Translations under genes and position numbers: made by a program
In this document: piece after piece, positions 538 through 20,756 of the stretch
How the letters are laid out: every line of letters begins with the position of its first letter
Position numbering within the stretch: the stretch's first letter is position 1
Assembly (NCBI GenBank): GCA_027596195.1
Contig: JADGJG010000303.1
Span: forward strand, 1-24,699
Length of the DNA stretch: 24,699 nucleotides
Origin: Podochytrium sp. JEL0797
Taxonomy: Eukaryota > Chytridiomycota > Chytridiomycetes > Chytridiales > Chytriomycetaceae
Direction: 5' to 3'
The notes under the pieces: model-generated
Database searches by the model: none
What the model was told of the DNA's origin: nothing
Seen by the model: only the letters and a program-made list of their open reading frames with translations

Positions 538-755
538 ACAACACTCTCCACCCATTCTCAGCGACCCATGACATCGCGTTGAGAATGTAATCCACCTCCT
601 CACGAGAGATAAATCAAATTGAACCGCATGAACCCGAACGAGAACCAGTCCATTCCCGAAAACGCGTCCTCCTCCTCCACAAAAACCACAAACAGCTTGT
701 TGAAATATGGCGTCATGTAGCTACGCCCGCTTTGAGGAGACATTGCTTGGTTTTG
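538..755 (-). pseudogene. AT tail fragment 1 (degraded 3' piece of the class V aminotransferase gene)
   Basis: Read on the minus strand, this segment encodes PYFNKLFVVFVEEE, a gap, then FGFMRFNL. This matches PYFNELFVVSVEEEE...FGFMRFNLSY in the intact aminotransferase at 8859-10842. At nucleotide level the match runs on through the codons for VDYILNA and ends near 538 (ACTCTCCACCCATTCTCAGC on the plus strand). The reading frame breaks near 600, and everything encoding the N-terminal two thirds of the enzyme, including the PLP lysine, is absent. Upstream of the homology there is a non-aminotransferase segment, CCAAGCAATG, that the other three fragments also carry. The piece lies downstream of ZnF-1, in the same relative position as fragments 2, 3 and 4 to their ZnF copies. 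Confidence 0.8.
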
Positions 756-1084: not shown

Positions 1085-2314
1085 TCACTCGGGTTTGTTC
1101 ACGACATGATCCACAAAGTGCTTTTTCAACTCATCGTAAATCCATTCCTGGAAACAGCCCACCAGATCAACTGGAATCCCAATCTCGCCGTTAGGGGCGC
1201 GACTGACCCCCCCGTCCGATTCGCTGCCCAAGAAAGCGATCACGGCATTATCAATGGCTCTGCGGTTGGAAGCGGGGATGATTGGAAAATCGGGCATGAT
1301 TTGCGTGATGATTGTTCGATGGCTCACGAACGCGTTCTGGGGAGGTTGAGAGGTCACAGTGGAGGCAAGCGCGGGTTGGGATGAAGGCGGGGTGGCGTTC
1401 GAATCGGATTCTAGAGTGGATTCCGATGGGCGGTTCGTGGCCGTGCTGATTTTTGGCGTTCCATCACATGTTCCCGCGTGGGAGTGAAGGCTCGACCAAG
1501 CTGTGTAGTTTTTGCCACAAAAGCAATAGACCCTGCCATCCACATGTCGCTCAATTCGGACTGGATATAAGTTTGTCAAAGGTAACAGAGGAAAGGACGC
1601 GCCAACAAAATTCCCAGCACCAAACAAACCTTTCTTTCCTCCAGGAAACTTCATGTTTGCATGCATCGAATGATAGTTGTACACGTGATTACCTTGCTCA
1701 TTTTTGGTTTTGAAGGTCGCGTTGCAGGTCAGGGTGGAACATTTGATTCGGCCGACTGCCGGGATCATTTTGCTCGCAGGTTGTTGTTGAGCAGAGGATC
1801 GCGTTTGCCATTCTGGAAGATTTCTGCGGAGGAATTCGAGGGATGGTGGTGGGAATGGGATTTCGTTGTTGAAGGTATCGGCGGTATGGGACAAGTTGGA
1901 GCCGGATTCGACCAGCAGGAGACGAGGTGATGAAACAGTGTCCAAACGGGGCTTCTTTGGGACCGAATCGAGGGACTCTCTTTGCATGGCTCGAGTCTGG
2001 ATGGCGGGCGACGTCGCCGTAGCTGGATGGAGTGGTGGTGGCACATGATTCTTGCTCGTCGCGTTGGCAATCAACAGCGAATCCAAGGGTTTTTGATCGA
2101 GCGATTCCCTGATCGTGGTTTGGGTCTGGATGGTGGCTGTCGATGTGGCTGGATGGGGAGGAGGCACTTGCTTTTCGAGATTCTCGATCTTGGCCATTGC
2201 CAACCCCAACTGTCGCTTCAGGATCAGGTTCTCAGCCTCAAGCGCATCAGACTTGAACTCGATGGCTGCAATGTACTTGGCGGTGTTGATGTGAAGGGAG
2301 GGGTCGCTCGTCAT
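1085..2314 (-). CDS. ZnF-1: coiled-coil / double zinc-finger protein, intact copy
   Basis: Start ATG at 2314 (protein begins MTSDPSLHINTAK), chosen because it aligns with the starts of ZnF-2, -4 and -6; the frame is open upstream to 2356 but has no ATG there. Exons 2314-1630 and 1560-1085; the 69-nt intron 1629-1561 has GT..AG ends and a position shared with ZnF-2, -4, -5 and -6. Spliced length is 386 residues. Order: N-terminal helix with heptad leucines (about 10-50); two copies of a module with a VPPP and an RESLD motif; a basic KKPRL patch (possible nuclear signal); first finger C-x4-C-x12-H-x4-H; intron; second finger C-x-C-x12-H-x3-C (CFCGKNYTAW); Pro/Ser linker; and a C-terminal domain from HRTIITQIMPDFP to HVVNKPE. 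Zinc binding and nucleic-acid or protein binding are inferred from spacing only. No known family is recognised. Only 38 nt separate its ATG from the stop of the RIX1-like gene upstream. Confidence 0.75.
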   Translation of the reverse strand: MTSDPSLHINTAKYIAAIEFKSDALEAENLILKRQLGLAMAKIENLEKQVPPPHPATSTATIQTQTTIRESLDQKPLDSLLIANATSKNHVPPPLHPATATSPAIQTRAMQRESLDSVPKKPRLDTVSSPRLLLVESGSNLSHTADTFNNEIPFPPPSLEFLRRNLPEWQTRSSAQQQPASKMIPAVGRIKCSTLTCNATFKTKNEQGNHVYNYHSMHANMKFPGGKKGLFGAGNFVGASFPLLPLTNLYPVRIERHVDGRVYCFCGKNYTAWSSLHSHAGTCDGTPKISTATNRPSESTLESDSNATPPSSQPALASTVTSQPPQNAFVSHRTIITQIMPDFPIIPASNRRAIDNAVIAFLGSESDGGVSRAPNGEIGIPVDLVGCFQEWIYDELKKHFVDHVVNKPE

Positions 2315-2352
2315 TGCTTCGCTTGGCTCAATTTTTTTTAAAAAACATCCGT

Positions 2353-5098
2353 TCAATTCCCACCCTCCTCCTCCTCACCCCCCTCCATCGCCTCCATCTC
2401 CTCCTCCTCATCCTCCGCCTCCTCATCATCGTTATCCTCATCAAACACAATATCAGGCAACACAATCTCCGGATCCTCCTCATCTGGCGCCACATACGCA
2501 AAGTTGGAGGCTACCGCAGGCGTCACAGATGCACCTTCCTCCTCTTCATCGAGATCCATGCGGTCCGAGATGGGGAACGCGTGGACGACTGGTTTAACGG
2601 GAGTTGGTTTGAAGGCCACGATTGGGGTTGCTATGGAGGCTGGTGGTGCGGATGAGGGTGGTGGCACAGAACCAATGTTCTTCGCATCACTACCACTACC
2701 ACCACCACCATTGACAACGGGAGTCGCAACATGAATCGGAGTAACATCCACTTTCGCAGCAGGTGGGAGACTCGAACCACCTTCCATCGGTTCATCGTGC
2801 CCAGTCATGGGTGCAACTGCAACTGCAGCTGCTGCAGTTGCATCCGTTCTCGAGGATGAAATAAAGTCCATAAATCCGCCCGTGTTGCCTGTGGTGCTGA
2901 TGGTGCCGTACCCCAACGACTTGGTGGGCGCATTTCCGTGGTGATGCGCGCCGTCAGTTTCGTCGTTGGATGCGTGGGAACGCGTGAATACGGGACGGTA
3001 TCCGAAGAGGACGTCGCTGTGGGAGTTGATGAGGGATTCGAGGTTGGCTTTGAGCTAAGGGGAGGGAGGGGTTCAGATCAAAACGCGCAAAAAAATACCA
3101 ATTCTGAGTTTCCTACCTCCGCATCAGATGTCGAAACAGCATCCAATAGCGCCTTCATCCCACACGAGACCCACTCGAACGGGAACGCGTCGCGTGCGTG
3201 GCATTCGAGACACTTGATCAACAGCGAGAACGAGGACAGCTGGATACTGTTTGAAAACTTGCCCGCCTGTTTCAATGCGAGAATGTTTTGCACGAGGGTC
3301 GTAAAGACGGCTGTGATGGGTGCGATCGGGACTTGTTGTGGGGTGGCGTATGTCAGGATGGCGGAGAGGGCTGAGAAACACGACAAAAAAGAAAGATTGT
3401 GAGCAAAACGTAACTGAAAACGCGGGGATTGGATAAAAAAGCTCCGAACCTTTCGTCGCAGCAATCATGACGGCGGCTTCGCTTCTTCCAGCCGTTTTGG
3501 CATCCAACGCATTCACATCCGAAACCGTGTCCTCAATAATCCCCAAATAAATCGAATCGACCCCGTTCGTGCCGAATACTTCGACAAAGGTGGTCATCAA
3601 GCGGTACGCCGAAACTCTCAGCGGACCCGACTTGGCAGAATACGCAAACGATTTGCGGATCAAGAACCAGATGGTGTCGCGGTCGGGAATCAGTTGCAGC
3701 TCGAGACTGGAAGGGGGGGAGGGGTGTTCACATTTCAGATTCGGCACCCGTTTCGAAAAGGTTTCGCAAAACATGAAAAAATACCTCGAGATCAAAGCAC
3801 CAAGCAATCTGTTGATGTGGCAAACAAGGACCGGCATGACAATGTGCAGCTTTTCCGCGTAAATAGCCTCGTGTTGGCCGTTCTTGGCCTGGCGTGAATC
3901 CATTTTTCAGAATTCGAAGACCAAGGGTAAAAAGAAAGACCCGAGAACGCACCTTCGCATTCCCAGACGCCTCCAGAATCATGCTCGCAATAACCATAAT
4001 CAGTTTGGGGTTCACAGTATCCACCTTGTCTCCCTTGGATCCGAGCAAATAGAGGTGGCATTGGACAAACGCCTTGAATCTTTCCACGAGATGAATGAGT
4101 CTGACGGCGTAGGATCCTTCGATGGGAGCCAATTCGTACGCGTGAATCTTGGAAACGTGTTTGGGATCTAACAAGGAAACGGCGCATGAGAAACGGCTGA
4201 AAAATCGAAGCCGCAAGAAAGCCACACAAGCACACACCATTCACGTTCACAACCGACACCAACTCCTTCACAATCTCAAACAACGTCTCCGAAATTCTCC
4301 CGGATGTGCTAATCGCGTCCTTCTCGTTGTTCTTGTTTCCGCCCTTTGCGGTGGTCAAAATACGGTTCGCAACGACAAGGGCCTTCACGGCCTGCGCGTA
4401 CACTCTGGGCAGCAAGTTTTGGGTCGACAGGGTGTCGATGCACAAGGTTTCAATCTTTTCGGCGTATGGCTTCGCGATGGACGGGAATGTTGAGGCGAGG
4501 ACGGTGTATTCGGCGAGGGTGCGAGTCTTGACAAAGTGGGAAGGTGAGAGGGAGGCATTGGATAGACGCGAAAGGGTTCTTACCACCATGTCGTGGCTGT
4601 GGCCAGCACTGGCAACCTTTTGCAGCAAAAAGACCATGAGTTTCTGGATGTTTGGGGTTGCCACGTCGCGTTGCAGATGGGCGAATTGCTTTGACTTGAC
4701 AATGACGCATCGGAGAGAAAGCAGAGACTCTTCAAAGAGGGGGCCTGAGGATTTCTAGGAAGCGAATGTCAGGAGACATCCGGATTTGCTAGGAAACAAA
4801 AAGCACACACCTTGACACCCCCGTTGAGAAGCAGGTTGCACCAGGCCGCCGCGTGGTCGACAAACAGGGCATCTGGGCAGTGGACAACAAGCAGACGCAC
4901 GCACACGGCGCCGCAGAACTGGGCCTCGCTGCTTTTCGAGGCGAGTTGTTTGTTGATGCGCGCAATCAGCTGAAGCGCGCTGCCTTTGGGGAGACTAGAG
5001 AGCGTCGAAGGATTCGCTGCCACTGAGGACACAAAGGCACGAAGGGCTGCCGCGGACGGAGGTGATGAAATGTCCGGTGGGAAGAAACTGAAGGGCAT
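2353..5098 (-). CDS. RIX1: Rix1/PELP1-like pre-60S ribosome assembly protein
   Basis: Rix1 family proteins act in the nucleus/nucleolus in the Rix1-Ipi complex, which processes ITS2 and prepares the pre-60S particle. My exon model is 5098-4811, 4754-4584, 4526-4238, 4167-3953, 3888-3785, 3706-3450, 3370-3117 and 3054-2353. All phases are consistent and the result is 759 residues, near the roughly 760 of yeast Rix1. Supporting signals: alpha-helical repeat-like sequence throughout; a RDVATPNIQKLMVFLLQ segment after the first intron that resembles the family's conserved reivTPnLp region; and a C-terminal acidic tail (DPEIVLPDIVFDED, then long Glu/Asp runs) as in PELP1 and Rix1. A Gly/Pro/Ala-rich linker precedes the tail. 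The intron 4583-4527 is a multiple of three without stops, so it could also be retained. The start is the first in-frame ATG after a pyrimidine-rich leader on the minus strand. Assignment rests on pattern and length, not on a search. Confidence 0.72.
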
Positions 5099-5166
5099 TT
5101 GGACTTGAACAAAAAAAAAAGAAAGAAAATCGCGTCGCCTCTTTTCACTTCCCACGCAAAACGCGT

Positions 5167-6415
5167 TTATTTATCTCGTTTCCAAATACTCCCAAGAGAC
5201 AAATCTTCAACATCAACTGGTCCATCCCTCCACCCAATAGTCATCAGCCTTTCCTTCCGCAGAACCAGTGCTTCCAAATCCTCCGTCATCAACGCAAACG
5301 ACTGAAACTTGACTTCCCTCAAAAACTCACATTCTGGCAACACATCCAGCAATGCATCCAAAACTGACTCTTCCACCTTCTCAACTCCCATAAAACACAA
5401 GTGTGTCAACCGTTCGCATCGAGGCAAGATCTCGGCAGGAAACCGATCCATCTGTCCCACGTGTAGTTCACCCAGTTTTTCAAGCTCAGGTAACACGTCG
5501 ACAATCTCGTCAGGAACTTCAGTCGAAAACGCCAATCCCCGCAAATCCGGAAGACTCTTGAGCAACTCTGCCACGAGAACCATTTCCTCATGATCATCAT
5601 ACCCCTGAAACACGCGTGGCACATGCAGCATTCGAATACACGTTTTGATTTCCACGAGTTTTGTGAGGTAATCGGAAAAGTTTTCGTTGTAAGGGAGTTC
5701 TTCAGGGTTCTCGCCAATGAAAATGTTTTTGGGGAGGAGTGGGGCGAGGTTGTCGAGGTATTCTACTGACGAGGGGACAATCACGGCGGAGCCGTTGTAT
5801 CGGGACAAAATCTTGGAGAGGGTGTAGATTTTGAGAATGTGTCGAACGGGGATTTCGGTCGGTGCGTATTCGTCGTCCTTTTTGATCCAATCCATTAAAA
5901 AGTCTACTCCACTAATCCCCGTACAAGGCCAACAACAAGGGTACAGGCCACAACAAACTCACATAATCGAAAATATCCGCATCCTCATCCTCTGAATCGA
6001 GTTCGCGCTCGGCCTTCTCTAAACTCCCCACGGGAAACTCCAAATCGGGCCACAAGAGTGTCGGGCCACTATAGAACCCCGGGAAGGCTGACCCGACTTC
6101 GAAAATGGCTTTCGAAATATGCGACAGCTGGGGCATCGAGTGACAAAACTGCATGATGGAGTCTGAGTCAATGAAGGACACGATTCGGTCCAGGATTTCG
6201 GGGGGTAGTGAGGTCAGGCTCGGGGGGCCGGTTATTTGAACGGTGGAGGAGGGGCGGTGTTGGTCTGAGGTGGATCTGAACTGGGCGGATGAGAGGGAAG
6301 GAAGTCGGAGGAGTTTTCGATAAACGTTGATTTCTTCGAGGGAGTCTTGCTTCAGTTTCTCGATTCGTTCATAGGCCTGCTGACAGCAGAAACAGTCGGG
6401 CTTGGCGCATGTCAT
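5167..6415 (-). CDS. F-box protein with a C-terminal leucine-rich region
   Basis: F-box proteins are substrate adaptors of SCF ubiquitin ligases. Start ATG at 6415 (MTCAKPDCFCCQQAYERIEK). The N-terminus has a Cys cluster and a short coiled coil. An F-box-like segment follows at about residues 70-105: SLTSLPPEILDRIVSFID, then a helical stretch ending in LLWPDLEFP. Exon 2 carries degenerate leucine-rich repeats (for example LPDLRGLAFS, LPELEKLGELHV, LPRCERLTHLCF, LPECEFLREVKF). The only splice I find that keeps the frame is intron 5958-5904 (55 nt, GTTTGT..GTAG), giving exons 6415-5959 and 5903-5167 and 397 residues. The stronger-looking donor GTGAGT four bases upstream (from 5962) with acceptor TTAG puts exon 2 out of frame. 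If the first ORF is unspliced it ends at 5912 after 167 residues. The F-box call is fairly secure; the junction is not. Confidence 0.65.
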
Positions 6416-6633
6416 TTGTGATTGAAAAAAAAACAAAAAAACATCCCAATTTTGGGTCGCCAGTGTCGGGGAATGCTTGCGGGAACCTTGATCACCCAAA
6501 TGGGTGCACTGAGCATCAAAACGGCAGCTGAGAAGCTTGACATGTGCACGACCGCGATAAAGGTGAAATTCAGTTTGGTGCAAATTGGATCCAACGAAGC
6601 CCCCTTATTCTTCATTGGCAGGACCCACTCGCA
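6416..6633. promoter_or_regulatory. Shared upstream region of the divergent F-box and TIR-like/TPR genes
   Basis: Only 218 bases separate the two divergent start codons, so both promoters must lie here or overlap the genes. It holds an A-run (6425-6440) and two small dyads, CCCAATTTTGGG at 6445-6456 and CACCCAAATGGGTG at 6493-6506, which could be factor sites. No TATA box is evident. Promoter function is inferred from position. Confidence 0.4.
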
Positions 6634-8357
6634 ATGCCCACATTCGGAATCCGACTCTCCATGATCGAGAAGCTGATTGAAGACTGGGGTGGCAGAGGAA
6701 TGCTGGAGGGGTTAAAGACTTCTTACGTGGTAAACCAGTTCATCAAACCGTATACGCAAAAGTCGGGGCTTTCGTTCTGTGGCAAGCTCTTACAAAGCCA
6801 CGACGTTACCAAACAAGACGCCATCCACGAAGCCAACTGGTTCATTTCGCATATGTGGTCAAACAAGTTTCTCGAAACAGTGGATGCAATTTACGCCTTC
6901 TTTGATTCTCGCCAAATGACGGATCGAGACTCCATCGTCGTATGGATGGATGTGTTTTCTCACTCGCAGCACGATGCAGTGGGCAGCAAACCAGAAGAAT
7001 GGTGGACGAATGTGTTTTTGAGTGCTCTGAAGAACTGCGAGAATGTCGTGTTTGTAATGACCGATTGGGACGAACTGGCGCCGTTGAAGAGATCGTGGTG
7101 TATTTACGAGGTGTATGCGTGTGTTCAGACTGGGAGTAGTTTTCATGTTGCAATGACGCAAGAGGTTTGGAGCAACGCTTTTTTTTTGTGTGCGCGTTTT
7201 TGGCGTATTCAATTCGGCTCATACTGAAACAACAGGCTTCCGAATCCTTTTCTGAAATGATGCAAACGAACCCGAGCCGATTGCACGAAACGCTCTCCGG
7301 CATCCAAACTGAGCGCAGCCTCACCCACCTCGATTCCGATCAATCTCACATTTTTCACACCCTCCAAACCTCGCTCGGTTCTCTCCAAGAAATGGACCGC
7401 ACCCTCATCGTTCTGTTTTCTCACTGGGCTATCGCGTTTCTGCAACGGTGTGTGAATTTGGCGGAGGATCCAATCGACAAGGCCACGTGGTTGCTCTCCC
7501 TGGGAACTTTGTACCAACAAATCGGGTGTCAAGACCTCGCGTTCCCCGTCCTCCTCGAAAGTTTCGACACGTTCAAGTCAACCAGTCTTCCCCCTTCCGA
7601 CCCTCGACTTGCGCAACTCAACCAGCTCGTGGATCCCACAAAAGCTGTAGAAACGAGCTTCTTGTTGGCCGTGCAGGCGAATGAGAGCCACGATTACATT
7701 GAGTCGGAGAAGTTGTTTTTGCAGACTTTGCGGTTCGCGGACAAGTTTCCGGATGTACAGGGGGGTGGTGGGGACGTGGATTGTGTGGTGGAATCCCAAA
7801 AGTATTTGAAGGAGTTGTATAAGCTCCAAGGACGGGCGGACCTCGCGAGGCAGTATGACAACAAGCTCCGCCTTCTCGCGTTGTACAAGCGACACGGACT
7901 CGTGAAGGGAGTGACGGAGGATTACGAGATTCAACGCGCACAGCTAGCTGCCACGCATCACGTCAACGTTGGAGAATTGGATGAAGCTGTGACGAGTTAT
8001 TTGGAGTTGTTGGAAGCGCAGAAACACGCGTTGGGAGAGTTTGATGAGAGTGTGGTCAAGTCTTTGAAGGAGGTTGCGGAGCTTCAGGCCAAGACGCGGC
8101 GACCCCTAGCGGCGGTGAAGTACACAGTTGAGATGTATTATCGCAAGGGGAAAGGATTGATGGAGGTTGGGGAGGTGGATCAAGCGGAACGCATGTTTTT
8201 GAGGGCGTTTGATTTCGATTCTTCGGTGGAGTTTGGGGAGGGGGATGTGGATTATGTGATTGAGAGTGTGAAGGGGTTGGTTGGGTTGTATAAGTTGCAG
8301 GAGAGGCCAAAGATGGTGAAAAAGTATGAAGATTTATTGGCGAGTGCGTTGGAATAA
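6634..8357 (+). CDS. TIR-like domain protein with C-terminal TPR (kinesin-light-chain-like) repeats
   Basis: Exon 1 is 6634-7164, intron 7165-7235 (71 nt, GT..CAG, phase 0) and exon 2 7236-8357, giving 550 residues. The start is the ATG at 6634 (MPTFGIRLSMIEK), the first Met before a plausible domain; the frame is open further upstream to 6544 but that stretch looks non-coding. Exon 1 resembles the TIR-like fold seen in many protist, algal and fungal TPR proteins: a strand with FISHMW (70-75), VWMD (103-106), a helix around EEWW, a strand VVFVMTDW, and RSWCIYEVY (153-161). These correspond to the hydrophobic strands and conserved acidic residues of such domains. Exon 2 carries repeated alpha-helical pairs with DVDCVVESQKYLKELYKLQGR and later DVDYVIESVKGLVGLYKLQER, typical of TPR units. 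The substrate or partner is unknown and NADase activity should not be assumed. The AATAAA at 8353-8358 overlaps the stop codon. Confidence 0.68.
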
Positions 8358-8358
8358 A
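8353..8358 (+). terminator. Poly(A) signal overlapping the TIR-like/TPR stop codon
   Basis: AATAAA occurs with the stop codon TAA (8355-8357) inside it. The aminotransferase gene shows the same arrangement at 10838-10843. Polyadenylation use is inferred from the motif. Confidence 0.4.
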
Positions 8359-8389
8359 TTCAGCTAAATGAAGGCGATAGTAAACATTC

Positions 8390-8472
8390 TTGGAAGCGCA
8401 GAAGCGCACGTTAGCGAGGTTGATGAGAGTGGTGAAGACTTTGAATTAAGTTGCCTCAGTTCAGGCGAAGAC
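8390..8472 (+). repeat. Degraded partial duplication of the TPR exon
   Basis: This stretch begins TTGGAAGCGCAGAAGCGC and includes TTGATGAGAGT and CAGTTCAGGCGAAGAC. It aligns with coding sequence at about 8010-8095 of the TIR-like/TPR gene (TTGGAAGCGCAGAAACAC, TTTGATGAGAGTG, GCTTCAGGCCAAGAC) with substitutions and small indels that break the frame. It is a decayed copy of part of the neighbouring gene, lying just after its stop codon. Confidence 0.75.
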
Positions 8473-8858
8473 ATATAAATAAAAACCGGAACTCATGTTT
8501 TTTTGAAAACCCTATGTACTGGATGAAAAAACCGGCGACGCCGCTAGTAAATGATGAATTAAATTGGATTAGAAATAAGAAAAAGCGAAAATTTCATTAA
8601 ATTGGTTGTTAACTTGAATTGCGCCATCGAAAAACAATGGCGCAATCGAAAAACGGACCCTTCATGCTTGGCAGCGATTCGGCGGAAAGCCGCACAAGCC
8701 CCAAAGGCTTGGGACGCGTTCTGGAGGTCCCCTTGTGGCCGTCTAAGCTCCCGCTTGCTTAGTGATTTTGATGAATAAGACGGAAGACGAACCCTGTTCG
8801 AATCGATGCACAAAATCCAGTTTTTGTAACTTCCACGAAAACATACCAAAAACTACAC
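8473..8858. other. Intergenic region upstream of the aminotransferase gene, with hairpin-rich segment
   Basis: No gene is recognised. Features: a dyad CGGCGACGCCG at 8533-8543 (CGG-N5-CCG); a perfect hairpin at 8619-8645 (TTGCGCCAT, 9-base loop, ATGGCGCAA); and a GC-rich stretch at 8655-8730 that can fold as GGACC (8655-8659) pairing with GGTCC (8726-8730) around two inner hairpins, CGGC/GCCG (8680-8692) and CAAGCC/GGCTTG (8695-8711). The last part should hold the promoter and leader of the aminotransferase gene. The segment does not fold as a tRNA. Confidence 0.4.
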
Positions 8859-10842
8859 ATGCCAACTTGGATAGAAAGAATCACGGGCCTCACGCTTACC
8901 GACTCCAAGACCGTCACCCCCGTTTCCAAGCCTCAACGACGCACGAAGCACCTCGCTTTTGAAGACCTCCTCCCGATTCCACAACATGCCAAACAGTCCC
9001 CTCAAGCGTTGAGCGAGTTCCTCCACAAGGATGTGATTCTCGCAGACACGGTCGACACTCCGTTTGGAACTCGGCCGTTGTTGTATGCCGATTTCATCGC
9101 TTCCGGAAGATCGTTGCGGTGTGTTGAGACGGCTATGATGGACCACGTCATGCCGTATTATGCAAACACGCATACGGATACGGGGATTTTGGGGCGGTGT
9201 ATGACCAAATTGAGGGAGGATGCGAGGTAAGATAAGATCGATGATTTGGTGGCAAACAACGACGGGGGGCTGATTAACTCATCAATTTTTCCCGCCCCCG
9301 CCTTACTCCGACAGACTCATGATCAAAAACACCTGCCACGCGACACCCGAAGAATACGGATGCATCTTTGTCGGGTCTGGCGCTACTGCTGCCATCAACC
9401 GTTTAGCGCATCTCGTCGAGCTCCCGCAATGCGTTTCGAACGCGAACGGGGCGCAAGATCAGCTTCCTGTTGTGTTCATTTCGTCTGCTGAGCACCACTC
9501 TAATATTTTGGTGTGGAGAGAGTTGGGGGCAAAGGTTGTTCCTATTCCGTCGAATTTGGAGACGGGTGTGATTCGGGTGGAGGAGTTGGAGAAGGAGTTG
9601 AAGGTGAGAACGAGCGCGAGTTGTTAGCATCCTTTCTGGTGGATTTTTATTGAAATTTTTGGGGTTTTTGTGTAGCGCCACGCGTCGGCCACCGTTCTCA
9701 TTGGCTCCTTCACCGCCGCTTCCAACATTGTCGGCATCCTCCAACCCGTTCACCAACTCGCCAAACTGATGCACAAGTACAACGGTCTCGCCTTCTTTGA
9801 CTACGCCTGCGCGGGCCCTTACGTCTCCATCGAAATGAGCCCCGCCGCAAGACCCGTTGACGAACACTTGGACGCCGTCATGGTCAGCCCGCACAAGTTC
9901 TTGGGTGGGCCTGGGACGCCGGGGATCCTCCTCGTGCGGAAAGGCATCTGTAGGGGCGATGGGACGAGTCCCACCGTTCCCGGCGGTGGGTCTGTGACTT
10001 GGGTGAATGGACGCGGGTTCCAAGCTTACGCGAATGATCTTGAGACGAGGGAGGAGGCTGGGACGCCGGATATCCTGGGTGCGATTCGGGCTGGGTTCGT
10101 GTTCCAAATCAAGGGGATGTTGACGGCCGAGTTTATCCAGGAGAGATGTTTTGCGTGGTCTCGGTACGCGATGGAACGGTTACACGCGGCTCCGAATTTG
10201 ATCACGCTCGGACCGCCTTCGAGTGCTGTGAACAAACTCCCTGTTTTCAGTGTGATGATCAAGTCCCCTGTTGAGGATCAGTTTCTTCATTTCCACTTTG
10301 TGAGCAAGATCTTGTCGGACGTGTTTGGGGTGCAGTCGAGGAGTGGGTGTAGCTGTGCCGCGCCGTATTTCAACGAGTTGTTTGTGGTTTCGGTGGAGGA
10401 GGAGGAGAGTCGGAGGGACGCGTTTTTCGGCAACGGCGAGTTGACGGAGGGGTTCAAGTTTGGGTTCATGCGGTTTAATTTGAGTTATACTCATACGAAG
10501 GAGGAGGTGGATTACATTCTCAACGCGGTGACTTGGGTTGCTGAGAATGGGTGGAGAATGTTGCCATTTTACGATCATGACCCGCGCAAGGGCACGTGGA
10601 CGCCTGTGATGAATGACAATGGGGTGTTGGAGGCTACGGTCGAGTGTGAAAGTGGGGAGGGGGAGGTGGAGGACTTTGGGGTCTATGCGGAAAATGCGTT
10701 GGGTGCGATGGCGGGGGTTGTGATGAGGAAAGATTGGGTTGAACGCGTGAGGGAGAGTGCGCAAAAGAGGGTGGATGATCCGCATACCGATTTGTTGAAG
10801 TGGTATGCGATTTTGTGTGATATTTCCAGTTTTGAGGAATAA
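8859..10842 (+). CDS. Class V (cysteine desulfurase-like fold) PLP-dependent aminotransferase, intact
   Basis: Three exons, 8859-9226, 9315-9603 and 9676-10842, with 88- and 72-nt GT-AG introns, give 607 residues. The fold-type I PLP enzyme is shown by YADFIASGRSLR (about 77-88), the SGATAAIN helix-start that holds the phosphate, SSAEHHSNILVWRE (179-192) as in cysteine desulfurase/selenocysteine lyase relatives, FFDYACAGPY with the PLP-nitrogen aspartate D261, and SPHKFLGGPGTPG with the Schiff-base lysine K293. A SRSGCSCAAPYF segment follows, at the place where cysteine desulfurases have their catalytic or structural Cys loop. The C-terminal domain (FGFMRFNLSYTHTKEEVDYIL, then an acidic extension of about 110 residues) is the part copied elsewhere in the window. 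The class is clear; the substrate is not, and it need not be a desulfurase. Start: first ATG, followed by continuous homology-like sequence. AATAAA overlaps the stop codon. Confidence 0.82.
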
Positions 10843-10843
10843 A
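10838..10843 (+). terminator. Poly(A) signal overlapping the aminotransferase stop codon
   Basis: AATAAA contains the stop codon TAA (10840-10842). The following bases (TACGAGTGACAGAGAAATTC) recur exactly after AT tail fragment 3 at 15161, so the 3' UTR was duplicated together with the gene tail. Confidence 0.4.
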
Positions 10844-10892
10844 TACGAGTGACAGAGAAATTCGGATTTATTGACCTTTCCCCAGTTGTAGA

Positions 10893-10983
10893 TCAGTGCC
10901 CTCCCTTCGATGGAGGAACAGATCCCGCAGGGTTAATAACATTCCACAAGCGTTCCCAGAGGGTTCAATATCACAAAGCCCAC
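10893..10983 (-). pseudogene. Dead copy of the last exon of V-ATPase subunit e
   Basis: On the minus strand this reads from a CAG acceptor and GTGGGC through TGGAATGTTATTAACCC and GCGGGATCTGTTCC to GGGAGGGCACTGA. It aligns along its length with exon 3 of the intact gene at 15340-15238. In-frame stops appear right after the WA codons, and small indels shift the frame. No other exon of the gene is present nearby. It sits immediately after the intact aminotransferase gene, convergent with it, mirroring the arrangement at 15155-15340. Confidence 0.82.
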
Positions 10984-11122
10984 CTGTAAATTAAAGAGAG
11001 AGTGTTAAATTCTTGGAAGCGGACTCAGCTGGGATCCATCGCTAATATACACTCCCAAAAGTGAAAGGAGGGGGAGAAAAAAGAGAATCGAAGCCAAAGA
11101 AAAATTGAATCAAAACAAAGCA

Positions 11123-12492
11123 ATGGCGAGCCAACTTGACATCACGGCCAAGTACATCGAAACCCTCGAGTTCAAAGCAAAGATCCTCGAGTCCAAGTCT
11201 GATGCGCTTGAGGCTGAGAATCTGACCCTGAAGCGACGTTTGGAGCTGGCCGAGAACGAGCAGAATCTCCAGCTGAACGAGCAGAATCGCCAGCTGAACG
11301 AGCAGAATAGCCAGCTGAACGAGCAGAATCTGCAGCTCAAGGAGCGAGTGGAGCTCCAGTCAGCTGAGATCGAGAAGCTCAAGAAGCAGGTGCCACCACC
11401 CCAGCAAGCCCTGGCGACACCCACCATCCAGATCCAAACCACGACCAGAGAATCTCTCGAACCCGTCCCAAAGAATTCGCTGCCGTTTGCGAACGCGAGG
11501 AGCAAGCTGCAACTGCCACCACCCCAGCCAGCCACACTGACACCTGCCATCCAGACTCGAGCCATGCCAAGAGAGTCGGTCGATTTGGTCGCAAAGAAGC
11601 CACGATTGGCCACCACTTCCCCTTCACTTCTCCTGCGCGACGAATCCGACGGCTCCAACTTTTCCCACCACCCTGATATCTTCGATGTCGAAAGCCAACC
11701 ACCATCCCCCGAATTCCGCCGCAGAAAGCAGCCAACGGTGCAAACGCGAGCCTCGGCAGGCTCGGCTGAGCAGCAACCAACGAGCGAAAAGGACCCAGTC
11801 GAAGAATTCAAATGTTACTTCCCAACTTGTGACGACACTTTCGAAACCGAAGAGAAGCAAATCGATCACGTGAAAAACTTTCATTCGCTGCAAGCTGATA
11901 TCAAGTTTCGTGGAAGAAATGATGAAAAAGGTTTTTGTTTTCCTTGTGAATGTTTTTTGGCAACTCATTTCCTCCGTTAAATTTGACAAACGTCTATCCA
12001 GTGACAGTCCAACTTGAGCGACATGAAGATGGTATGGCCTATTGCCCTTGTGGCAAAAGCTACCGGGGTTGGCGGAGCTTGCAACAACATGCGAACCAAT
12101 GTGACGTCGTCGCAAAAGCCGGCACGGCCACGAATCGCCCATCGAAATCCAATCTTGCAGTTGCGGAATGCACTTCGGACGCCAACTTGCCTTCATCACA
12201 ATTCGCGCGTGCTGTCACCGGGATCCGTCGACCTCCCCCAAACGCGCCCGTGAGACATCGCGCCATCCTCACGCAAATCATGCCCGATTATCCAAACCTC
12301 TCCGCTTCCGACCGCAAAAGCATTGATACTGCCGTTCTCCGTTTTTTGCACAGAGAATCGGAAGGAGATGTGAGTTCCGCCCAGAACGGCGATATTGGGA
12401 TTCCAGTTGATCTGGTGGGCCGTTTCCAGAATTGGGCATACCAAGTGTTGAAGAAGCACTATGAGAGGCATGTTGCCAACAAGCCTGAGTGA
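11123..12492 (+). CDS. ZnF-2: coiled-coil / double zinc-finger protein, intact and longest copy
   Basis: Start ATG at 11123 (MASQLDITAKYIETLEFK). Exons 11123-11930 and 12002-12492 flank a 71-nt GT..CAG intron in phase 1, giving 432 residues. The N-terminal coiled coil is lengthened by four heptads (EQNLQLN type, residues about 46-73) encoded by a 21-bp repeat. Two VPPP/LPPP-RES modules and KKPRLAT follow. First finger: CYFPTCDDTFETEEKQIDHVKNFH pattern, C-x4-C-x12-H-x4-H. The second finger, encoded just after the intron, is CPCGKSYRGW...HANQC, C-x-C-x12-H-x3-C. The C-terminal domain runs from HRAILTQIMPDYP to HVANKPE. There are no lesions, so it is likely expressed. Function is unknown; a nuclear DNA-, RNA- or protein-binding role is an inference from the fingers and the basic patch. 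It lies between the intact aminotransferase gene and AT tail fragment 2. Confidence 0.78.
11258..11341 (+). repeat. Four tandem 21-bp repeats encoding coiled-coil heptads
   Basis: Units begin GAGCAGAAT and end CAGCTGAAC (the last ends CAGCTCAAG). They encode EQNLQLN, EQNRQLN, EQNSQLN and EQNLQLK. The period is seven residues, in frame, with Leu/Asn in register as a coiled coil needs. No other ZnF copy has the array at this length; ZnF-5 has a short LKEQNSHLKEQ version. Confidence 0.9.
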
Positions 12493-12625
12493 GAAGGGTT
12501 CTGGTTTTTATTTTGTGTGACTGCTTCAATATATATGCATTTTTCTTTTGGCAAATATTGTTGAGCGCGTGAGAAATTGGGTCGGTGTTCGCACGCGTGT
12601 GTCGGACAGAAAGCGGAAGAATTAT

Positions 12626-13016
12626 CAAAACCAAGCAATTGCCCCTAAAAGCAGAAGTTGTGCGGCGTCGTATTTCAACGAGTTGGTTGTGGTTTCGGTG
12701 GCGGATGGGGATATTCGTAGGGACGCGTTTTTCGGGAGCGGAGAGTTGGCCGGAGGGGATACAAGTTTGGGTTCATGGCGGCTCAATTTGAGGTATACTT
12801 GTACGAAGGAGGAGGGGGAAGTTTTGACGCGGTGACGATTCCGCAAAAAGGCGCATGGACACCCGTGATGAATGACAATGGGGTGTTGGAAGCTCTGGTT
12901 GAGTGTGAAAGTGGGGAAGGGGAGGTGGATGACTTTCGGGTGTATGCGGAAAATGCATTGGGTGCGATGGCGGGGGTTGTGATGAGGAACGTGAAGGAGA
13001 GTGCGAAAAAGAGGTG
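12626..13016 (+). pseudogene. AT tail fragment 2
   Basis: It begins with the shared junction ACCAAGCAAT and encodes CAASYFNELVVVSV, RRDAFFGSGELAGG and RLNLRYTCTKEE. An internal deletion removes the codons for most of DYILNAVTWVAENGWRMLPFYDHDP. Then TPVMNDNGVLEALVECESGEGEVDDF and AENALGAMAGVVMR follow in another frame. It aligns with 10345-10760 of the intact aminotransferase. The fragment ends abruptly at 13016, where the sequence continues as the tail of a ZnF gene. Confidence 0.82.
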
Positions 13017-13120
13017 TCGTGAACAAAGCCGAGTGAGACGGGAATAACGTATTTGCAATTTTGCGTGACTGCTTCAATACAATCGCATTTTCTTGGTATT
13101 TTTCTTCGCCCAAATATTTT
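13017..13120 (+). repeat. Orphan ZnF 3' end fused to AT tail fragment 2
   Basis: GTCGTGAACAAAGCCGAGTG matches the last codons and stop of ZnF genes (VVNKPE-stop in ZnF-1; MNNPE-stop in ZnF-3). The next bases (AGACGGGAATAACG, then TTTTGCGTGACTGCTTCAAT and CATTTTCTTG) match the 3' flanks of ZnF-2, -3 and -6. No ZnF body precedes it, so this is a recombination scar. Confidence 0.75.
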
Positions 13121-13210
13121 CGATTGGGCGCATCGGGTCGGTTTTTTGCCCCTTCCCCCGACCTTGCCATCAACCACCAAGGGAAGGAAGAAAGGTTGCA
13201 CGTACGTGGG

Positions 13211-13395
13211 TAGTCTTTGACGGATGGAATACAGCACGTGAAGGCGGTTGGGAGATGGCATTCTTGACCGTGAGTACAAAGTACTTTTATTTAGAGTGGT
13301 TGTGCCACTAAGACAAGTTGTGCGAATGCGAGATTAAGGTTATGGAACGATTTGTCAATTGCGAACGTTTTTTCTGATGGAGAGATGAGTGGAAA
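13211..13395 (+). promoter_or_regulatory. 5' flank of ZnF-3, homologous to other ZnF upstream regions
   Basis: GAAGGCGGTTGGGAG, GGCATTCTTGACCG, and AAGTTGTGCGAATGC followed by TATGGAACGA match, with substitutions, the region upstream of ZnF-5 (minus strand, about 19400-19520). The AAGCTGTGCG / TGTGGAAT part also recurs upstream of ZnF-4 (about 17640-17690). This conserved flank is the likely family promoter. The role is inferred from conservation across copies. Confidence 0.5.
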
Positions 13396-14529
13396 TTGAA
13401 ACCGAACAGAAATACCTCCCTTCACATCGACACGGCCAAATACATCGCAGCCATCGAGTTCAAGTCTAATACGCTTGAGATTGAGAATCGCGATATCAAG
13501 AAGCGAGTGGAATCGCTGTTGGTTGACAACGCGACGCTCAAGACGCAATTGGCTCAACTCCAGCAAACCTTGGAGACATGCACCATCCAGTCCCAGATCT
13601 TGGTCAGAGAATCGATCGAGCCGGGAGCGAAGGAGACCCGTTCAGAGTCGCTGCTGGTTGAGAAAGCGCCGCACAAGAAACAAGGGTCACCAGCCCATCC
13701 TGCCACATCGACAGCCACCATCCAGACCCGATCCATGCTCAGAGAATCGATCGAGTCGGTCCCAAAGAAGCCACGCTTGGCCACTTCTTCGCCTTCTCTT
13801 CGCCTGCTTGACGAATCCGATGGCTCCAACTCCTCCCATGCCGATTCCTTCAATGAAGAAAGCCCACCAGCATCCCTCGAATTCCGCCGCAGAAAGATTC
13901 CAGCGATGCCAACGCGATCCTCCACGGAACAACAACCCGCGATCAATTTGAGTCCAGTTGACCCAATCAAATGTTCCACCTTGACCTGCAATGCGACCTT
14001 CAAAACCAAAAATGAGCTAGTACATCGTGTAAAAATGATTTTGATAAATTTCTATCCAGTACGAGTTGAGCGACATGCAGATGGTATTATTCGTTGCTTT
14101 TGTGGTCAAAGCTATACGGCTTGGTCGAGCCTGCACTCCCATGCGGAGCGATGTGACGGAAGCGCCACGAATCAACCATCGTAATCCGATCTTTCAGCTG
14201 CGGAATCCGATTCGGTCGCCACTCCGCATTCAGCCCAACCCGATCCTGCAGCCACTGGGACCACTCAACCTCCTCTGAACGCGCTTGCGAGCCATCGCGC
14301 AATCATCACCCAAATCATGCCCGAATTTCCAATCCTCCCTGATTCCAACCGCAGAGCCATTGATAATGCTGTGATCGCTTTCTTGGGCAACGAATCGGAA
14401 GGGGAAGTCTGTCGCGCCCAAAACGGCGATATTGGGATTCCAGAGGATTTGGTGGGCGGTTTCCAGGAATGGATATACGATCAGTTGAAGAAGCTCTTTG
14501 CGGATCGTGTCATGAACAACCCCGAGTGA
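13396..14529 (+). pseudogene. ZnF-3: disrupted copy of the coiled-coil / zinc-finger gene
   Basis: It aligns with ZnF-1 over most of its length (TSLHIDTAKYIAAIEFKS, two RESIE modules, KKPRLAT, CSTLTCNATFKTKNE). Three lesions are visible. The family ATG is missing and no in-frame ATG lies before the homology. A deletion between ELVHRV and the intron end removes the second histidine of finger 1 and the exon end, although the intron tail TTCTATCCAG remains. An in-frame TAA at 14182-14184 sits where other copies read Ser-Glu-Ser. Beyond it the frame is still open and conserved to the family stop at 14527-14529 (HRAIITQIMPEFP to MNNPE). Conservation after the stop suggests that it lost function recently. 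Finger 2 (CFCGQSYTAW...HAERC) is intact. Confidence 0.8.
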
Positions 14530-14670
14530 GAAGGGAATTACTGTATTTGCAGTTTTGCGTGACTTCTTCAATACATATTCATTTTCTTGATGCAAATAAT
14601 GTTGAGTGTGTGCATCGGGTCGGTTTTTGCATGAACATCTCTAACAAAAATGGAAATATCAAACTCCCAT

Positions 14671-15177
14671 AATCAAGCAATGGCCCCTGTAAAGCGGGAG
14701 TCTGCGTGGCGTCGTATTTTAACGAGTTGTTTGTGGCTTCGGTGGAGGAGGAGGAAAGTGACGGAGGGGTTCAAATTTGGGTTTATGCAGCTCAACTTGA
14801 GTTATCTTCACACGAAAGGGGAGGTGGGTTACATTCTCAACGCGGCGACTTGGGTTGCTGAGAATAGGTGGAGAATGTTGCCATTTTACGATCATGACCC
14901 GCGGAAGGGCACGTAGACACCCGTGATGAATGACAATGGGGTGTTGGAGGCTACGGCCGAGTGCGAAAGTGGGGAAGGGGAGTTGGAAGACTTTGGGGTG
15001 TTTGCGGAAAATGCGTTGCGTGTAATGGCGGGGGTTGTGATGAGGAAAGATTAAGTTGAACGCGTGAAGGAGAGTGCGAAAAAGACGGTGCATGATCCGC
15101 ATACCGATTTGTTGAAGTGATATGCGATTTTGTGCGATGTTTCCAGTTTTGAGGAATAAATACGAGTGACAGAGAAA
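14671..15177 (+). pseudogene. AT tail fragment 3 (longest, reaches the aminotransferase 3' UTR)
   Basis: It begins at the shared junction AATCAAGCAATGGCCCCT and follows the intact gene (10345-10880) through ASYFNELFVASVEEEE, FKFGFMQLNLSYLHTK, VAENRWRMLPFYDHDP, TPVMNDNGVLEATAECE and AILCDVSSFEE. It continues through the stop, AATAAA and the first 3' UTR bases. Frame shifts lie near 14705 and 14757, and TAG/TAA/TGA stops replace Trp or Lys codons near 14914, 15052 and 15118. It ends facing the intact V-ATPase-e gene. Confidence 0.87.
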
Positions 15178-15189
15178 TTCGGATTTATT
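15155..15189. terminator. Overlapping convergent poly(A) signals
   Basis: AATAAA on the plus strand (15155-15160, from AT tail fragment 3) and AATAAA on the minus strand (TTTATT at 15184-15189, about 50 bases past the V-ATPase-e stop) lie within 35 bases. The same pair is preserved after the intact aminotransferase at 10838 and about 10866. The 3' ends of the ancestral convergent pair therefore overlapped. Confidence 0.45.
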
Positions 15190-15237
15190 GACGACGCCCA
15201 AAGGAGCTCCATAAAATGCTAAGCTGAACGTTACAGA

Positions 15238-15858
15238 TCAGTGCCCTCCCATCGATGGAACAGATCCCGCATGGTGAACATTCCACACACGTTCCGGAGC
15301 TACCAGAGGATTCAGCTGCGCAAGATACGTGATGGCCCACCTGAAAGAGAAGAGAGAAAGCAGAGGGTATACGTCAGAAACAAGTATTTGATCGTTTGAT
15401 TTTTGGGGAGGGAACGAGTCGCGTGAAGCGAAATTTTCGATCGAGGCGTGCTTGTTTGGAGGGATGTCCATCGCGCCCACACTGCAAATTTCCACAGATA
15501 CGCAGTGATCCAACCAGCCTTCGGTTTCAATCGGGAACAGCGAACGGTATCAACGAGGAGCAGTTTCCGTTGTTCCGTTTCGCGAGTGGTCGTATATTTC
15601 GAAATTCGATTCGCATCGCACCACGAGTGCTGGGGCAGAGAAACGAGGACCGCCAACTCACATCATCCACGTGGATACAAAGGTCAGGGCCACGGCCGTG
15701 CGGATGATGCTAAGAAACCAGTCAGAACTCTTCCGCGCGGTGACAATCCCTCCTAAGAACACTCACAGCTGGTTGTCGTTCTTGGGCACAAAGTAGAAGC
15801 AGGCAGCGCCGATTGCTCCGAAGAGGAGAAACGAGGTGAAGATGGTCATGAGCGTCAT
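15238..15858 (-). CDS. VMA9: V-type proton ATPase subunit e (Vma9 / ATP6V0E family)
   Basis: Subunit e is a small two-helix protein of the membrane Vo sector of the vacuolar proton pump. Exons 15858-15767, 15709-15662 and 15340-15238 (phases 2 and 2) encode 80 residues, the usual family size. Helix 1 is IFTSFLLFGAIGAACFYFVP, and the FVPK turn matches the family's FxPKG. Helix 2 spans TAVALTFVSTWMMWAITYLAQLNPL. The motif AQLNPLVAPER is the family signature (AQLNPLfGP in animals). The start is the first ATG; a second Met at residue 4 is possible. Intron 1 is 57 nt, whereas intron 2 is 321 nt, far longer than others in the window. The last exon is copied in broken form at 10893-10983 and 17788-17866. 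Confidence 0.9.
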
Positions 15859-15988
15859 TTTTGGTTGGAGAGAGGTTTTTTTCTTGCTCCCTTTCTTTGT
15901 TTTCTCTCTCTGCGTGATTTATTTGAAAACTATCGCTTGAATCCCCTTCATCTTCTTCCTTCACTTCCAATCCATTTGAATAAACACC

Positions 15989-16581
15989 TCACGCGGCCAC
16001 ATCCTCTCCCCGCACCACCTCGATGCCCATACCCCGCGCCTGCGCCAACACTCTCCGACACATTGCCTCGTGCGTAGCATCCTCGCATCCCGGGTCCTCC
16101 ATCTTGATCTTTGCAATCTCATAGATGTGTTTGATGCTCAGCTCGCCAATCGTCGTGTGCGAGGGCCTGCTGCTGCCCTTCTCCTGACCCACGGCCTGCA
16201 GAAGCATCCAGCTGGTGGGCGGCGTCTTGGTCACGAACGTGAAGGAGCGATCCGGTCGTACCGTCAGAATCACGCGCATCGGAATGCCCTGCGTGTACGT
16301 TTTCGTGCGGTCGTTGAACTGCTTGCAGAAGTCCATTGTTTTGACTCCGCGCTGTCCAAGGGCGGGTCCAACGGGTGGGGAGGGGGATGCTTTGCCTGGG
16401 GGTTGGGGTGTGTTGATGTTCAGAGGCTCGTTGGGGTTGGGGCGATCGTGCGTGGTTGGAATCCCATTCGAATCCAATACCGGATATCTCCTGGCCCATG
16501 TTAAGACTAATCTCACTCACCTGCGGGTACTAGAAGCCGCACAATCGATGTGGTAGCCGAGCCAGCTTTTTTCGAGGACAT
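15989..16581 (-). CDS. Mitochondrial large-subunit ribosomal protein uL11m
   Basis: uL11 binds the GTPase-associated region of large-subunit rRNA. Exon 1 (16581-16521) and exon 2 (16395-15989) are joined across a 125-nt GT-AG intron in phase 1, giving 155 residues. The splice rebuilds the uL11 N-terminal motif: VRLLVPAG joined to KASPSPPVGPALGQRGV. After that come FCKQFNDRT, the hydrophobic MRVILTVRPDRSFTFVTKTPP strand pair, and the C-terminal rRNA-binding domain ending ARGMGIEVV. Length and lack of eukaryotic cytosolic features fit the bacterial-type (mitochondrial, yeast MRPL19-like) protein. No strong presequence is visible; the short MSSKKAG start is basic. Start: ATG at 16581. Its stop is 130 bases from the start of the V-ATPase-e gene on the same strand. 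Confidence 0.92.
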
Positions 16582-16742
16582 GGTGTGGAGATGAGAAAAA
16601 AAGCAAAGAGAGGTTTTTGTTATTCAACGGACGATGGAAGTCTCACTCCCAACTCTTATTAGAGGGGAAAGGCCCATTCAGATTTGAAGAAAAACAAATG
16701 TATTGAAGCTATAACGCGAAATTGCACTTCTTCCCTTCTCCC

Positions 16743-17563
16743 TCAAATTCCATCTCTTCGCAATACCCATTCCTGGAAACCGGCAACCAAATCACCTGGA
16801 ATCTGAAAGAATGGACTCGGAATTTCCTGAGCGGCCCTTTGCGTTGACCTCTGGCGTTCCGTCACATGTTTTGGCATGGCGGCGCAGACTCGACCAAGCT
16901 GTGTAGTTTTTGCCACAAAAGCAATGGACCCTCCCATCTGCACGTCGCTCAACTTGGACTAGATGAAGTTAGAGGAGTTAGAGGAGGGAGCTTAAAAAAA
17001 TCACAACGGGGAAACAAACCTTTCGTTCCTCCAGGAAACGTCACGTTTCCAAGCATCGTATGATAGTTGCCCACGTGATTGCGCTGCTCAGTTTTGTCTT
17101 CGAAAGTCGCGTCACAGGTTGGGGTGGAACATTTGATTTTGTCGACTGGGCTCAGTTTGCTCGTTGGATGGTGTTCAGCCGAAGCTCGCGTTTGGATCAC
17201 TGGCTGTTTTCTGCGGCGGGATTCGAGGGATGCTGGTGGGTTTTCCTCATCGAAGTTATCGGGGCCGAGGGAAATGTCGGAGCCATCGGATTCGTCGCGC
17301 AGGAGAAGTGGTGGCGAAGCAGCAGCCAAACGTAACTTTTTTGCGACCGATTCGAGCGATTGCTTGATCGTGGTTCGGGTCTGGATGGCGGGTGTCGGCG
17401 TGGCAGGCTGGGGTGGTGGCACTTGCTTCTTGAGGGTCGCGTTCTCCACCACCACCGATTCCAAACGTCGCTTGAGGTTCAGATTCTCCGCCTCAAGCGT
17501 ATCAGCCTTGAACTCGAGGGCTTGGATGTATTTGGAGGTGATGTTGGGGGGTTCGCTCGACAT
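16743..17563 (-). CDS. ZnF-4: coiled-coil / zinc-finger copy lacking the C-terminal domain
   Basis: Start ATG at 17563 (MSSEPPNITSKYIQALEF). Exon 1 is 17563-17020 and the intron 17019-16959 (61 nt, GT..TAG). It has one linker module only (VPPPQPATPTPAIQTR...ESVAKKLRLA), finger 1 (CSTPTCDATFEDKTEQRNHVGNYH) and finger 2 (CFCGKNYTAW...HAKTC). After CDGTPE a deletion removes about 90 residues found in other copies, including HRTIITQIMPDYP. The direct frame then ends at 16792 after 236 residues. The remnant IPGDLVAGFQEWV follows in another frame and ends at 16743. A 46-nt GT..TTTCAG stretch between GAG and ATTCCAGGT would, if spliced, rejoin TPE to IPGDLVAGFQEWV in frame. It may encode a shortened protein or be a pseudogene. 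It is not followed by an AT fragment. Confidence 0.6.
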
Positions 17564-17787
17564 CGCTTTGTTTTGATTCGATTTTTTTTCTTCGATTCTC
17601 CACCTCCCAGCCCCGCCCCCCAAAAAATGAATGTTTCGAATGTGGCAACTTATTCCACAGTTTTTCTCATACCTCGCACAGCTTACGCGATGGCCGAAAC
17701 ATGGTAGAAGCACTCTTTATTATTCCCATCCGCGAAAGAGATCCCCTTTAAGTGTCCTCGTGGAGCTCAACTGCAATTTTCTTCCAG

Positions 17788-17866
17788 GTGGGCCGTCAGA
17801 ATAGCCCCGGAACGTGTGTGGAACTCACTACGCGGGATCTGTTCCTCCATTGCAGGGCGGGGATTG
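17788..17866 (+). pseudogene. Second dead copy of the V-ATPase subunit e last exon
   Basis: CTTCCAG followed by GTGGGCCGTCAGA, then CCCCGGAACGTGTGTGGAA and GCGGGATCTGTTCC, matches exon 3 of the gene at 15340-15238, including its acceptor site. About 25 bases of the transmembrane-end coding sequence are missing. It is convergent with AT tail fragment 4, the same geometry as the intact locus but inverted. Confidence 0.8.
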
Positions 17867-17871
17867 ATCTA

Positions 17872-18195
17872 AAGCGCTCCACCTCCTTTTCCCCACTTTC
17901 ACACTCAACCGTGGCTTCCAGCACCCCCTTGTCATTCTTCACGGGTGTCCATATGCCCTTTCGCCAGTCGTGATCGTAAAAATCTAAAAATTTAGCGACG
18001 CGAGTAATCGCTTCCCAATAATCCACTTCCTCCTTTGTATGAATGTAACTCCAGTTGAGCCACATGAACCCAAACTCCGTTCCCGAAAAACGCGTCCCTC
18101 CTCCTCTCCTCCTCTCCACGCGACACCACAAACGACTCGTTGAAATACGGCGCCGTGCAGCTACACCCGCTTCGAGGGGCCGTTGCTTGGTGATT
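17872..18195 (-). pseudogene. AT tail fragment 4
   Basis: On the minus strand it begins CACCAAGCAACGGCCCCTCG, the shared junction, then encodes APYFNE in one frame. After a frameshift it reads EFGFMWLNWSYIHTKEEVDYW, FYDHDWRKGIWTPVKNDKG and VLEATVECESGEKEVE. It aligns with about 10345-10675 of the intact aminotransferase with several indels, and stops where the V-ATPase-e fragment begins. It lies just downstream of ZnF-5. Confidence 0.82.
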
Positions 18196-18285
18196 GGGAA
18201 TTTTTCTGATTTCTATGAATCAATGCGCTCACTCGACATATTGAATAGGTTTTGAATCTATCAAGCAAAACGGCACTTTCCCTTC

Positions 18286-19367
18286 TCACTCAGACTTTTT
18301 CACGACACGATCCACAAACGCTTCTTCAACGCTTGGTACACCCATTCCTGGAAACGGCCCGTCAGATCCTCTGGAATCAAAATGCCGCCGTTTTGGTCCC
18401 GATTGACCTCCACTCCCGATTCGTCGTCCAAGAAAGAAATAACGGCACGATCAATGTCCTCGCTTTGGGAAGAGGGGAGGGTTGGAAAGTCGGGCATGAC
18501 TTGGCTGAGGATGGTGCGATGGCTCACGGGCGCGTTCGGGGCCTTCCCAGCGGCTGCAAGTGTGGATTGGGCTGAAGGCGTGTTGGCGTCTGAATCGGAT
18601 TCCGCAGCTGAAAGATCGGATTCCGATGGGGGATTCGTGGCCTTCGGCGCTCCGTCGCATTTTTTGGCGTGTCGGCGCGAACTCGGCCCAACCGATTAGA
18701 TGTTGCCACAATGGCAATGAAACCTACCATCTGCACTTTGCTCCATTTGTACTGAAATGAATAGACAGGAGGAATAGACTCGCCAAAAAAAATCAAGACA
18801 AGGAAAACCTTCCTAATCACTTCCAAGAAACGTCACGTTTGCATGCATCCTATGATAGCTGCGCACGTGGTCGCCAAGCCTTTTTTTGGTTTCGAAAGTC
18901 GCGTCACAGGTTGGGGTGGGACATTGGAACTCCTCGCCTGGGTCCTTTTCGCTCGTTGGTTGCTGTTCAGCAGAGGATCGCGTTTGCATCGCTGGGAGCT
19001 TTCTGCTGCGTAACTTAGGGGGTTTTGATGGGCTTTTGTCATCGAAGATATCAGGGCGGTATGAAAAGTTGAAGCCATCGGATTCGTCGCGCAGGAGGGA
19101 AGAAGGAGAAGCAGCCGCCAAACGTGGCTTTTTGGATTCCGGGTCGAGCGGCTCTCTGCACATGGATCGAATCTGGATGGCGGGTGTCGCTGTGGCTGGT
19201 TGTTGCAGTGGTACTTGCTCCTTGAGAGTCGCGTTCTCAACCAATAGAGACCCCACTTGCTCCTTGAGATGAGAATTCTGCTCCTTGAGCGTCTCAGCGG
19301 CCAACTTGAGGGCTGTGATGTATTTGGCCGTGTCGACATGAAGGGAGGGTCAAGGGTCGCTCGCCAT
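18286..19367 (-). pseudogene. ZnF-5: disrupted copy of the coiled-coil / zinc-finger gene
   Basis: The family ATG is at 19367 but TGA follows five codons later (19352-19350), caused by a six-base insertion relative to ZnF-1. The homology then runs through a coiled coil (LKEQNSHLKEQVGSLLVENATLKEQ), one linker module, KKPRLAAAS and finger 1 (CPTPTCDATFETKKRLGDHVRSYH). A TAG at 18815-18813 sits just before the intron (18808-18752). In exon 2 the finger-2 frame (CHCGN) meets a TAA, and the C-terminal domain (HRTILSQVMPDFP to LTGRFQEWVYQALKK) has a one-base deletion near its end. At least four independent lesions make a working product unlikely. AT tail fragment 4 follows it. Confidence 0.82.
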
Positions 19368-19615
19368 CGCTTAGCGTTGATTCAATATTTTAATTCTCTC
19401 TTTCGATAATTAAAAAATGAGAAATTCATTCCACAGCTTGTGTCTTGCATCCGCACAACTTACCATTGCCTGCCTAATCCGCCTTCAACGCGGTCGAGAA
19501 TGCCGCCTCCCAACGGCCTTCTCTTGCAAATGCTTACAGATCCAAAAAACAAGCGTATGTATTGAAAGCAGTCACGCAAAATAGCAAAAATGCAGTATTC
19601 CGTCTCACTCAAGTT

Positions 19616-20756
19616 TCAAAAAAACTGATCGCAAATCCATTCCTGGAAACGGCCCACCAGACCCTCTGGAATCCCAATATCGCCGTTTTGGGCGCGAGTG
19701 ACTTCCACTTGCGAGTCGTTTTCCAAGAATTCGATAACAGCCTCATCAATGGCCTTGAGTTCTGGGGAGGAGATGGTTGGATAATCGGGCATGATTTGCG
19801 TGATGATGGTGCGATGACTCGCAAGCGCGTTCTGAGGAGGTTGAGCGGCCACAGTGGATGCAAGCGCGGGTTGGGATGAAGTTGGGTTCGCGTCCGAATC
19901 GGAATCCTGGATCTTCGACGTTCCGTCACACGTTTTGGCATGGCGGCGCAGACTCGACCAAGCTGTGTAGTTTTTGCCACAAGGGCAATGGACCCTCCCA
20001 TCTGCACGTCGCTCAACGTGAACTGGATAGAAGAATGCCGAAGTCAATGGAGGAAACGACTCGCCAAAAAAAATCAAAATAAGAAATCAAACCTTTCTCC
20101 TCTCTTCCAAGAAACGTCACGTTTGCATGCGTCGTATGATAGTTATACACGTGATCGCTTTGTTCCTTGTTGGTCGTGAAAGTCGTGTTGCAGGTCGGGG
20201 AGGAGCATCTGATCTGGCCAACTGGGCCGTTTCTTCTCGATGGTTGTTGCTCAGGAGACTCTTGTTTTTGCGACACTGATAAGTTTTGGCGGCGGAATTC
20301 GGGGGATGGTGGAGGGCTTTCTTGATGGAGAATATCGGAGGCATCGGAGTCGCCGCGCAGGAGAAGTGGTGGCGAAGCAGTAGCCAAACGCAGCTTCTTT
20401 GCGACTGACTCAAGCGACTCTCTGCGCATGGATCGAGTCTGGATGACGGGTGTCGATGTGGGTGGCTGGGGTGGTGGCACATGCTTCTTGCGCGTCGCGT
20501 TCTCAACCAACAGCGAGTACAAGCGTGGGTTCGTTGCGACAGACTCGAGTGATTCCTTGATCGTGGTTCGGATCTTGTTGGTGGGTGTCGGTGTGGCAGG
20601 CTGGGGTTGTGGCGCTTGCTTCTGGAGCGTCGCGTTCTCCACCAGCGCCGATTCCAAGCGTCGCTTCAGGTCCAGATTCTCCGCCTCGAGCGTATCAGCC
20701 TTGAACTCGAGGGCTTGGATGTACTTGGAGGTGATGTTGGGGGGTTCGCTCGCCAT
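19616..20756 (-). CDS. ZnF-6: coiled-coil / double zinc-finger protein, open copy with shortened C-terminus
   Basis: Start ATG at 20756 (MASEPPNITSKYIQALEFKADTLEAENLDLKRR). Exon 1 is 20756-20093, the intron 20092-20023 (70 nt, GT..CAG, phase 1) and exon 2 20022-19616, giving 356 residues. The coiled coil is followed by two tandem linker modules (QAPQPQPATPTP...KESLESVATNPRL, then HVPPPQPPTSTP...RESLESVAKKLRL). Finger 1 is CSSPTCNTTFTTNKEQSDHVYNYH; finger 2 is CPCGKNYTAW...HAKTC. The C-terminal domain HRTIITQIMPDYP ends early at EWICDQFF because a deletion removed the last dozen or so residues seen in ZnF-1 to -3; the stop TGA is created at the junction. It resembles ZnF-4 most (shared SEPPNITSKYIQALEF start). 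No AT fragment is detectable downstream. Confidence 0.72.

Follow-up and report, generated by a model that had tools for sequence, protein, structure and literature searches.

The stretch analysed here, called the window, comprises 24,699 nucleotides and is an entire contig (C228) of the assembly of Podochytrium sp. JEL0797, which totals 24.4 Mb in 995 contigs. It contains six copies of an unnamed zinc-finger gene, at 1085–2314 (minus strand), 11123–12492 (plus), 13396–14529 (plus), 16743–17563 (minus), 18286–19367 (minus) and 19616–20756 (minus). Three of the six are broken, and both the six paralogues and their division into three open and three decayed copies, first described in a sequence-only reading, are confirmed on re-analysis. 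At about even odds (0.5), the window represents one local cluster of lineage-specific nuclear regulators, zipper-paired zinc-finger proteins under birth-and-death evolution. The N-terminal helix would pair two chains as a leucine zipper, the paired fingers would bind DNA or RNA, and an acidic terminal module would recruit a partner, which might be the basic form of this module that relatives at other places in the genome carry. The dimerisation, the binding of nucleic acid and the recruitment of a partner are predicted attributes, as are the nuclear location and the regulatory role. Rapid zinc-finger birth and death has so far been described mostly in animals, and an unnamed family of an early-diverging fungus, with at least 20 terminal modules and a module of its own, would be an independent system for studying the causes of such turnover.

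Zinc fingers and N-terminal helix

Each window copy carries a single pair of fingers, a C2H2 finger followed by a C2HC finger, and five such pairs lie along a C218 stretch. Finger 1 of the window copies has the ligand pattern C-x4-C-x12-H-x4-H, with the canonical two-Cys two-His spacing of its class, and folds as beta-beta-alpha in the structure model, as in classical C2H2 transcription factors. It differs from these in that the Pfam cut-off for zf-C2H2 (25.2 bits) is reached neither by the window copies (at most 15.6) nor by their relatives (at most 18.5), and in that the second finger is C-x-C-x12-H-x3-C. Between the two fingers sit a beta hairpin, seen in the structure model, and a phase-1 intron, which is possible in 10 of 11 cassettes.

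Finger 2 could be taken for a UBZ4-like ubiquitin-binding C2HC finger, which would place the family, Rad18-like, in DNA repair or ubiquitin signalling. A C218 relative matches NCBIfam rad18 locally (E 3.5e-4), and a C218 finger has the spacing C-x2-C-x12-H-x3-C, but the 19.9 bits of the rad18 match fall far under the 175-bit cut-off and UBZ families are missing among the Pfam matches. Moreover, the aspartate of the UBZ4-type motif HLDxC is absent from the window fingers (HAGTC, HANQC, HAKTC), and this assignment is very unlikely.

The N-terminal helix is leucine-zipper-like and resembles that of bZIP proteins. Unlike theirs, it has no basic region ahead of the zipper in the profile matches, which start at position 26 or later.

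The C-terminal module

The C-terminal domain occurs genome-wide in at least 20 full-length copies on 8 contigs, some of them inside broken genes. It is homologous to a module of about 68 residues repeated in distant relatives, a score that none of 100 column shuffles reaches. Terminal modules are acidic in 17 of 20 cases and inner modules basic in 18 of 19. The existence of one module in acidic and basic versions suggests that paralogues may associate through them, which is the boldest reading of these data and is open to direct test. PB1 domains form acidic/basic pairs, and the likeness, homologous modules of opposite charge within one protein family, is one of analogy with no known sequence relation.

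Neither the module nor the family as a whole matched a named family or fold. The structure model gives helices of 8, 18 and 19 residues, and the histone fold is a short-long-short three-helix arrangement. The histone-fold chain of NF-YB (5g49_A) aligned with helix 1 to helix 2 of the module at E 0.06, third of seven chains and not significant, and no histone fold was recognised among the matches listed for the module model; a ZAD chain among those matches has a probability of at most 0.02. An APSES/KilA-N profile is not clear of column shuffles, its real score against the module being reached by 3, 17 and 21 of 100, and Pfam scans of the modules gave no KilA-N match. A separate feature is delimited at 1088–1366 (minus strand), inside the first copy.

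Turnover, selection and known systems

Searches of limited reach found no homologues beyond Podochytrium sp. JEL0797, and the family appears so far to be specific to this lineage. Homology-detection failure may make a fast-evolving family seem species-specific (PMC7660931), and this confinement is read with caution. Copies of the C-terminal domain cluster partly by contig. On C218 (L042/L043), internal repeats, the closest three 87–96% identical and some partial, show local duplication inside that cluster.

Pairs of open copies have a ratio of nonsynonymous to synonymous substitution (dN/dS, omega) of 0.66–0.75, which points to weak constraint. Within the fingers omega is 0.44–0.73 and never exceeds 1. 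The interpretation given in the earlier reading is supported in part. A decaying cluster with no present function, made of old near-neutral duplicates annotated merely for their still-open frames, is fairly unlikely.

The nearest systems in kind, by analogy (PMC7655104, PMC10547256), are the ZAD-ZNF families of insects, KRAB-ZNF of tetrapods and FiNZ-ZNF of cyprinid fish, which likewise combine zinc fingers and an accessory module in dynamic, lineage-specific copies. The chytrid family differs in its fungal host, in the one finger pair of each window copy, in a C-terminal module that matches no named domain and in the lack of demonstrated positive selection, and a silencing role might be proposed for it by analogy. 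None of the ZAD, KRAB or FiNZ accessory domains is among the Pfam matches (which of these Pfam models was not checked).

Copies of RPS3 that are 86% identical flank family clusters of unequal size on C451 (L023/L045) and C893 (L021), and a downstream block, 71–86% identical, is common to both. The family genes in between, three on C451 and two on C893, have no DNA match to each other, and the shared stretch may be a duplicated segment or diverged haplotypes. Such an island of change, the decayed copies and the partial grouping by contig would fit a genome-defence arms race, in which silencing of transposable elements, as by the animal proteins (an analogy drawn from the same two sources), drives copy turnover. 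This is unlikely, since the unmatched interval also includes kinase-like and GDSL-like open reading frames (ORFs), so that change there extends beyond the family, no target or silencing partner is known, and both the finger omega values and the single finger pair speak against it. A wider proposal is not very likely either: that the family is a species-confined fungal counterpart of KRAB-, ZAD- and FiNZ-ZNF, with an undescribed module, acidic when terminal and basic when internal, whose versions could bind each other. Paralogues from separate clusters would then assemble together on the targets that the split twin finger recognises, with islands turning over fast between conserved flanking genes.

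Duplication unit and neighbouring genes

The window holds a complete aminotransferase class-V gene (Aminotran_5; 8859–10842, plus strand), the source of co-duplicated 3′ fragments. A copy of its 3′ end follows four of the six zinc-finger copies and one copy on contig C757. All five fragments begin within 20 bp of one point; their right ends comprise three different positions and one common to two. Features from this comparison lie at 539–712 (minus), 12656–13014 (plus), 14709–15295 (plus) and 17871–18171 (minus). Copies would arise by duplication of a unit estimated at about 2.3 kb, from the aminotransferase 3′ end through the zinc-finger gene, and would die through deletion and stop codons, a history inferred from the sequence. 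That the unit instead spreads itself, as a selfish or mobile element remnant carrying the aminotransferase fragment, is quite unlikely. No transposase or reverse transcriptase was found in the 10 of 78 window ORFs scanned, and terminal repeats were not searched for.

Among the 10 ORFs scanned, the neighbours that exceed their Pfam cut-offs are ordinary genes, namely RIX1, TPR, aminotransferase class V, ribosomal protein L11 and PEPCK; one F-box match lies below its cut-off. Two public gene models, P0001 and P0002, each join an open copy to its decayed neighbour (11123–14529 and 18286–20756). A tRNA-Gly called by ARAGORN at 9945–10037 lies within the aminotransferase coding region and is probably false.
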